Positions 484-1,776 of a stretch of 5,416 nucleotides of DNA are shown here, piece by piece. Position 1 is the first letter of the stretch. Each line of letters opens with the position of its first letter. The notes beneath the pieces were generated by a model. That model was given only the letters and a program-made list of their open reading frames with translations. It searched no databases and was not told the origin of the DNA. The stretch lies in contig JAGUYV010000239.1 of NCBI GenBank assembly GCA_020061125.1, forward strand, positions 1-5,416, given 5' to 3'. Position numbers and translations under genes: made by a program. This DNA is from a bacterium. Lineage in GTDB: Bacteria > UBP15 > UBA6099 > DSWB01.

Positions 484-1776
484 ATGCCTTTTATCGCCGA
501 CCTGCACATCCATTCGCACTACTCGCGCTCCACGGCCAGAGACATGAATGTGGAAAGCCTGCACCGCTGGGCGCAGCTCAAGGGCATCTCCGTGCTGGGC
601 ACGGGCGACTTCACCCACCCGGCGTATTTCGCGGAACTGCGCGAAAAACTTGAGCCGGCCGAAGACGGCCTCTTCAAGCTCAAGCCGCAATTCGCCGCGC
701 CCCAGGACGATCTCGTTCCCGGCTCGTGCCGCGCGCCGGTGCGCTTCATGCTTTCTTGCGAAATTAGCTGCATCTATTCAAAAGACAAGAAAACCCGCAA
801 GGTGCACAATCTGATTTACTGCCCGGACTTTTCGGCCGCGGCCAGGGTCAACGCCGCGCTGGGCAAAATCGGCAATCTCAAATCCGACGGGCGCCCCATT
901 CTGGGTCTGGACAGCCGGCATCTGCTTGACATCGCGCTCGAAGCCTGCGAGCAAAATTTTTTTGTACCCGCCCACGCCTGGACCCCGCACTTTTCCATCT
1001 TCGGCGCGTTCACCGCATTCCAGTCCCTGGAAGAATGCTTCGGCGATCTGGCTCCGCATGTGCGCGCCATCGAAACCGGCCTGTCCTCGGACCCGCCCAT
1101 GAACTGGCGGCTGTCGCAGCTCGACAACATTGCGCTCATCTCCAATTCAGATGCGCACTCGCCCGCAAAGCTGGCGCGCGAGGCCAACATTTTTGAAACG
1201 GAAATGAGCTACCGCGGCATCGTTGACGCCATCAGCGCCAACGCCCCGGCTTCCTTTACCGGCACCATCGAGTTCTTTCCCGAGGAAGGCAAGTACCATG
1301 TGGACGGGCACCGCAAATGCGGGGTGCGGCTCACGCCCAGGGAAACGCTCATGCACGATGGCCGCTGTCCGGAGTGCGGACGCAAAATCACCGTGGGCGT
1401 GTGCTCACGCGTGGAAACCATGGCCGACCGCGCCGAGGACGAAATCCCCAAGTGCCGCGTACCCTTCGAGTCCCTCATCCCGCTCCAGGAAGTGGTGTCC
1501 GAATGCCTGGAAACCGGTGTGAATTCCAAAAAAGTCACCGGCGAATACTTCCGCCTGCTTGCGGAACTCGGCCCTGACCTGGGCATCCTTCGCACGGTTT
1601 CCCTGGCGGACATCCACGCCAGCGGCGGCCCCGTGCTCGCCGAGGCCATCCGCCGCGTGCGCGCACGACAGGTCAACATCGAACCTGGCTATGACGGTGA
1701 ATACGGAACCATCAAGATTTTCGAGCCGGGCGAACGGGAAAAGATAACCGCCGCCGGGCAGATGTCGTTGTTTTGA
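484..1776 (+). CDS. Endonuclease Q family PHP-domain DNA repair protein
   Basis: This 430-residue protein has the start, order of domains and length (about 420-430) of the EndoQ family (older name TIGR00375). Known members nick DNA just 5' of deaminated bases (uracil, hypoxanthine, xanthine) and abasic sites. The PHP metallo-phosphoesterase domain fills about residues 1-255. Likely metal ligands are D6, H8 and H10 (DLHIH), D42 and H45 (GTGDFTHP), E93, H108, H164 and D223/H225 (NSDAH). A four-cysteine zinc-binding module follows (C279, C295, C298, C307), then a helical C-terminal region (about 325-410). The last five residues, QMSLF, resemble the bacterial beta-clamp-binding motif. MPFIADLHIH is the family's usual N-terminus, so the ATG is chosen even though no clear Shine-Dalgarno sequence precedes it (GGAAACGG ends 13 bases upstream). 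It has its own leader and is followed 32 bases later by a carboxypeptidase gene. Family assignment is strong from motifs; activity is inferred. Confidence 0.88.
   Translation: MPFIADLHIHSHYSRSTARDMNVESLHRWAQLKGISVLGTGDFTHPAYFAELREKLEPAEDGLFKLKPQFAAPQDDLVPGSCRAPVRFMLSCEISCIYSKDKKTRKVHNLIYCPDFSAAARVNAALGKIGNLKSDGRPILGLDSRHLLDIALEACEQNFFVPAHAWTPHFSIFGAFTAFQSLEECFGDLAPHVRAIETGLSSDPPMNWRLSQLDNIALISNSDAHSPAKLAREANIFETEMSYRGIVDAISANAPASFTGTIEFFPEEGKYHVDGHRKCGVRLTPRETLMHDGRCPECGRKITVGVCSRVETMADRAEDEIPKCRVPFESLIPLQEVVSECLETGVNSKKVTGEYFRLLAELGPDLGILRTVSLADIHASGGPVLAEAIRRVRARQVNIEPGYDGEYGTIKIFEPGEREKITAAGQMSLF

Follow-up and report, generated by a model that had tools for sequence, protein, structure and literature searches.

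Endonuclease Q of a UBP15 bacterium ends in a probable beta-clamp docking peptide, and its relatives are repeatedly joined to a UvrD-like helicase

Enzymes of the endonuclease Q (EndoQ) family cut DNA 5' of AP sites and of dU, dI, and dX, and the ends they produce carry a 3'-OH and a 5'-phosphate (PMC4357722). In archaea, EndoQ works with PCNA, as the original prediction on the present sequence had stated: deletion of the C-terminal PIP box of T. kodakarensis EndoQ abolishes both PCNA binding and stimulation (PMC4858679). Bacterial homologues are known as well, and the B. pumilus EndoQ is active (PMC6202378). Beta-clamp motifs at the C-termini of bacterial EndoQ were noted by Shiraishi et al. 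in 2016, who also provide a consensus of the bacterial clamp motif (PMC4858679). Thus, the clamp idea for bacterial EndoQ is not new, having been published in 2016 (PMC4858679). A swap from PCNA to DnaN at a C-terminal pentapeptide is experimentally proven for another repair nuclease, NucS (PMC8228993). The EndoQ literature consulted does not agree on which step follows once EndoQ has nicked next to a deaminated base.

The window, that is, the whole stretch of 5,416 nucleotides analysed here (GenBank assembly GCA_020061125.1, contig JAGUYV010000239.1), comes from a bacterium of the UBP15 lineage and includes the following features.

484..1776, + strand: endonuclease Q gene, coordinates including the stop codon, product of 430 aa; relatives 5zb8 and 7k30 by sequence and fold.
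484..1707, + strand: EndoQ core, residues 1-408, ending PGYDGEYG, with PHP nuclease, zinc ribbon, and C-terminal domain; metal-site and Cys residues invariant in 64 sequences, model with pLDDT 93.
1318..1377, + strand: zinc-ribbon cysteines C279, C295, and C298; C295 and C298 invariant, C279 kept in at least 90%.
1708..1758, + strand: variable linker, residues 409-425 (TIKIFEPGEREKITAAG); alignment columns of relatives carry little information here, and part of it is modelled as a lower-confidence helix.
1759..1773, + strand: QMSLF, residues 426-430, proposed DnaN (sliding-clamp) docking peptide; 44/57 standalone proteins end QxxL[F/L], plus controls.
1809-2852: M14 zinc carboxypeptidase gene with a likely signal peptide, starting 32 nt past the EndoQ stop.

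The M14 peptidase has no evident link to repair, and convergent PurQ and PurL genes also lie downstream of EndoQ. The window protein is an endonuclease Q, as its sequence and fold match biochemically proven EndoQ over the whole length. Residues 5-421 of 430 align with Pfu EndoQ 5zb8 (phmmer E 1.6e-49), and the AF2 model, with a pLDDT of 93, matches the same structure in Foldseek (TM 0.83, E 4.8e-39). The NCBIfam model TIGR00375 gives 160.9 bits, which is under its cut-off of 326.6; therefore, the protein is a member of a divergent subfamily in which the core ends PGYDGEYG. In the alignment of 64 EndoQ sequences, E93, H108, H164, D223, H225, C295, and C298 are invariant, H8, H10, and C279 are kept in at least 90%, and D223 aligns with the Asp that is Asn in the 7k30 chain. 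By homology with the proven enzymes, the window EndoQ would be expected to nick immediately 5' of a deaminated base or an AP site and leave a 3'-OH. A match of the FxSxx-COOH RiPP model at residues 369-395 was discarded, being below the cut-off and within a predicted core helix. EndoQ was present in none of the six sister genomes of the host phylum (0/6), which suggests transfer or losses and argues against vertical descent inside the phylum. A mobile-element origin was rejected, since no match was found in viral contigs, plasmids, or phages.

The codons CAG ATG TCG TTG TTT at 1759-1773, followed by TGA at 1774-1776, are in frame with the ORF 484-1776, and the C-terminus reads ...AAGQMSLF; the predicted ending of EndoQ in QMSLF is thereby confirmed. 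A scan of genome contigs yielded 80 EndoQ relatives from many bacterial phyla with 47-59% identity, and the tail census was made on 57 complete standalone EndoQ proteins, with the window's own counted in. Q-x-x-L-[F/L] lies no more than one residue from the C-terminus in 44 of the 57, compared with a mean of 0.09 proteins and a maximum of two when the tails were shuffled 2000 times. Among 410 neighbouring non-helicase ORFs of at least 150 aa flanking the EndoQ genes, two have such an ending (the adjacent helicase L006, which also has one, was left out of this set). Conservation of the tail among bacterial EndoQ C-termini, which had been put forward as the way to check the prediction, therefore holds for the window's subfamily.

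The information content of the tail is concentrated at Q(-5), L(-2), and F(-1), with 2.90, 2.81, and 2.21 bits, respectively, and is 0.4-1.2 bits at the other positions. These three residues are the anchor positions of the bacterial clamp motif. A tail that is variable except for three anchors, placed at the extreme end of the protein, is the pattern of a bacterial clamp-binding peptide. The original prediction had taken Leu as the expected second residue and Met as an exception; in this subfamily, Leu is not typical at that position, Lys is the commonest residue (17/52), and Met is found in 4/52. The stretch before the tail had been called flexible, which is not clearly correct: AF2 confidence is lower over the last 10 residues, at about 70, but a helix is drawn over residues 417-429.

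Since the Q-x-x-L-F tail recurs in this subfamily across many phyla and relatives are often joined to a helicase that bears its own copy of it, QMSLF is very probably a docking peptide for DnaN, the beta clamp. The host has one copy of DnaN, with 246 bits for TIGR00663 against a cut-off of 137.65. When this protein was aligned to E. coli DnaN and scored at the residues of the peptide pocket, R152, T172, G174, H175, R176, L177, P242, Y244, V247, Y323, V360, M362, and P363 were found to be kept, and the one change was L155M. It had further been proposed that clamp coupling would place incision at replication forks; this does not follow, since clamps also stay on the DNA after the fork has passed and can be loaded where there is a nick.

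The tail is absent in 13 of the 57 complete standalone proteins, or about a quarter. Six of these form one deltaproteobacterial clade (L008, L017, L032, L033, L043, and L053) in which the tail is lost and most members stop at or just after GYDGEYG. Further tail-less proteins have degenerate ends (QNRLI, QTALPI) or, in the case of L042, represent an apparent truncated fusion whose end is a helicase Walker A-like stretch. In a sample of 398 Bacillota genomes, EndoQ falls into two classes: one is closely related to the window protein, and the other is distant, with about 400 aa and an identity of about 25-33%. The distant class, presumably the B. pumilus/B. subtilis type to judge from phylum and size, has no motif within the last 60 residues when read to the stop (0/35), and all 35 proteins end 3-18 residues past GGGGxYG. 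Four Bacillota genomes (G013, G314, G290, and G336) carry a pair of close EndoQ copies, of which one lies in a long fused frame and the other stands alone; none of the three standalone copies that were read (L161, L163, and L167) has the tail. Since the tail is missing in about a quarter of the standalone proteins and in these standalone Bacillota copies, it is dispensable somewhere. Therefore, the prediction of a conserved DnaN-type motif on bacterial EndoQ is strongly supported within the window's subfamily, and fails for the distant Bacillota class and for one deltaproteobacterial clade. The published remark on beta-clamp motifs would likewise be true for one EndoQ subfamily only.

Many relatives of the window EndoQ are joined to a helicase. 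In 24 of the 80, EndoQ is fused through a linker to a UvrD/PcrA-like SF1A helicase (L002, L003, L010, L012, L016, L020, L022, L023, L025-L027, L030, L031, L037, L039, L044, L058, L060, L061, L063, L065, L071, L072, and L075), and the helicase part, if complete, is mostly 540-680 residues long. In ten more, a separate helicase gene adjoins EndoQ and starts before, at, or up to about 60 nt past the EndoQ stop. The fusions were found in Bacillota, Pseudomonadota, Verrucomicrobiota, Thermodesulfobacteriota, Gemmatimonadota, Calditrichota, and others, and the adjacent helicases on contigs of Nitrospirota, one Omnitrophota, one Elusimicrobia, and one Patescibacteria. In Bacillota, 45/62 strong matches lie in open frames of at least 980 aa. 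All eight complete adjacent helicases end in QxxLF, six being closely related Nitrospirota, and a QxxLF-like motif is located in the last 30 residues of 20/21 complete fusions. The remaining complete fusion, from Anaerotruncus colihominis DSM 17241 (L016), is frameshifted: its fused helicase frame is broken late, and the downstream ORF ends QMSLF. The old EndoQ tail is retained inside 31/46 fusions, each time exactly 15 residues past the core; shuffling gave a mean of 2.4 and a maximum of seven, and the next 28 residues gave none. The fusions thus bear two putative clamp peptides, one of them inherited internally from the EndoQ tail.

Most of the length of the linked helicases is matched by the models pcrA, uvrD, and rep, and Walker A and the other SF1 motifs are kept, as judged by eye. 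Their scores are far under the equivalog cut-offs of all three models; the complete ones reach 322-534 bits with the pcrA model, for which the cut-off is 911. No Q-x-x-L-F tail was found on about 46 UvrD/PcrA/Rep helicases unlinked to EndoQ, taken from sister genomes and from the genomes of the relatives. Therefore, the motif goes with the EndoQ partnership and not with the helicase family; among the genomes examined, no clamp-tailed UvrD-like helicase was seen in one that lacks EndoQ. A tree built from EndoQ cores groups the window protein with its nearest relative, the Elusimicrobia EndoQ with an adjacent helicase (L004; support 94/79), and places the two as sister to the clade of all fusions (supports 97/93 and 98/96). 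Labels for tail, fusion, and adjacency change 4-6 times each on this tree, and relatives of the same phylum are not independent; therefore, the number of lineages behind the pattern is moderate, and most of the sequences compared are from metagenome assemblies. The helicase is not required everywhere, since 14/35 genomes with an unlinked EndoQ have no UvrD-like match. A universal pairing of EndoQ and helicase was rejected, as many Patescibacteria have the EndoQ tail and no UvrD-like helicase was found in them. Thus, the tail must be of use by itself, and the helicase was added in a single branch.

In the window, the gene next to EndoQ encodes the M14 peptidase, and no helicase is fused or directly downstream. 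The host C-termini were surveyed by a DNA pattern search for Q-[hydrophobic]-x-L-F-stop in the 4.1-Mb genome, and only three plausible genes have this ending: EndoQ, a UvrD-like helicase, and a DUF488-like protein. The helicase is a fragment (L083; G000:C231:3600-4309, - strand) that ends PPQMELF, and BLAST matches it best to linked helicases. Three N-terminal parts of UvrD type are present in the host, on contigs C398, C146, and C60. That on C398 is complete, PcrA/Rep-like, and without the tail, and that on C146 is UvrD-like, cut at the contig end, and 42% identical to E. coli UvrD. The C60 part, also cut at a contig end, has a fused helicase as its best BLAST match and carries a GG-T/A-..F..DSGRV insert that is also seen in several linked helicases. 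The C60 and C231 fragments both stop at contig ends, with about 54 codons missing if they are joined, and they probably represent one split helicase gene; C60 is the better mate for C231 since C146 is a housekeeping UvrD. The placement of C60 and C231 in the helicase tree is weak. None of the UvrD-like helicases of six sister genomes without EndoQ has the tail. The host helicase ending in QMELF, on other contigs, is probably the matching unlinked partner of the window EndoQ, and the evidence tips slightly in favour of the two working together in this host.

The third host gene with such an ending (L084; G000:C274) ends GAQLELF and has no NCBIfam match; its DUF488-like name is presumptive, being our own reading of the sequence. 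Its QLELF ending may mark a clamp client or may be due to chance. A QLELF-type ending is also present on a short MazF-like ORF in a sister genome. The 18-mer CAGATGTCGTTGTTTTGA, which occurs identically in a sister genome at G005:C112, was set aside because no open frame of more than 80 aa ends with it.

That QMSLF is a coincidence in one protein can be dismissed with near certainty: unrelated proteins occasionally end QxxLF, but a tail common to 44/57 proteins of many phyla stands against 0.09 by shuffling and 2/410 among neighbours, and conservation and both controls reject a chance ending. The tail might also be a conserved peptide of another role which resembles the clamp motif, such as a protease signal, a core-capping element, or a dimerisation tail. 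The lower-confidence AF2 helix at 417-429, where no disordered tail is drawn, fits such a role, and hydrophobic C-terminal residues are recognisable by proteases in principle. However, the conserved residues Q(-5), L(-2), and F(-1) are precisely the clamp-motif anchors while the x positions are free, the same motif ends the linked helicase, which is a different fold, and the distant Bacillota EndoQ class lives without the tail. A protease signal is further opposed by the motif being kept inside fusions, where a C-terminal degron could not work. Overall, another role appears improbable, and docking to the clamp is the best reading of QMSLF.

Even if the tail docks on the clamp, fusion and operon could reflect a joint function other than deaminated-base repair, such as recombination or defence against foreign DNA; alternatively, the host helicase could be unrelated to EndoQ. 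The many Patescibacteria that keep the tail with no UvrD-like helicase found are in favour of such readings, as is the M14 peptidase beside the host EndoQ, in place of a helicase. On the other hand, the fusion recurs in the six named phyla and others, the clamp-tailed UvrD-like helicase was seen only together with EndoQ, and no relatives were found in phages, plasmids, or viral contigs. Such explanations are plausible but seem unlikely, with perhaps one chance in a few. A joint role of EndoQ and the helicase in repair at the clamp is somewhat more likely than not: EndoQ and a dedicated UvrD-like helicase, whether fused, co-operonic, or separate, would form a widespread bacterial repair module in which each is docked on the clamp by its own Q-x-x-L-F and which nicks at deaminated bases and displaces the damaged strand.

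The proposed working is a clamp-tethered unit that nicks and then unwinds, and its clamp binding, host helicase partnership, and order of steps are inferred, whereas the sequence, conservation, fusion, adjacency, tree placement, and intact DnaN pocket are observed. QMSLF would tether the window EndoQ to DnaN, so that the enzyme would be concentrated locally and its 3'-OH could be passed to a clamp-bound polymerase. The UvrD/PcrA-like helicase, fused or co-operonic in the sister branch, would work with EndoQ through its own clamp peptide. SF1A helicases move in the 3'-5' direction. Held on the clamp, the helicase would probably move 3'-5' on the intact strand and displace the nicked strand that bears the lesion as a 5' flap, while the 3'-OH is extended by the clamp-bound polymerase; repair would be completed by ligase together with a flap or 5'-3' nuclease. 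The host version would consist of two separate genes with separate tails, QMSLF on EndoQ and QMELF on the helicase.

No account of an EndoQ-helicase module was found in the literature that could be searched, in which matches were judged by title and abstract and subscription journals were mostly outside the search. The helicase partner is the apparently new part, the clamp motif on bacterial EndoQ having been published already, and the published statement is narrowed here to one subfamily which excludes the distant Bacillota class. A helicase that recurs as a partner of EndoQ, both halves bearing a clamp peptide, points to a specific next enzyme and to a scaffold, and the module, if true, would supply the missing step after EndoQ incision. 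Cultured carriers of the fusion, such as Anaerotruncus colihominis and Eilatimonas milleporae, make the question testable.

Archaeal EndoQ from T. kodakarensis and P. furiosus is of the same family and fold, and its clamp peptide is likewise at the extreme C-terminus; however, this peptide is a PIP box (QRSITEFL, QRTLLQYI), its partner is PCNA, and no fused or adjacent helicase is reported (PMC4858679). The distant Bacillota class is also a bacterial EndoQ homologue, but it lacks the QxxLF tail and has an identity of about 25-33%. The EndoQ-linked helicases resemble the SF1A helicases PcrA, UvrD, and Rep along most of their length and differ from them in their low pcrA scores and in the C-terminal clamp motif. 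Bacterial EndoMS/NucS from Corynebacterium and Mycobacterium is a repair endonuclease that archaea also have; its C-terminal peptide has PCNA as its partner in archaea and DnaN in bacteria, as is proposed for EndoQ, whereas its nuclease fold is unrelated, its substrate is a mismatch, it makes a double-strand cut, and its motif is [E/K]-[L/Y]-[T/R]-L-F (PMC8228993). Together with NucS, EndoQ may thus be a second candidate repair nuclease that keeps its clamp coupling while the clamp differs between domains.
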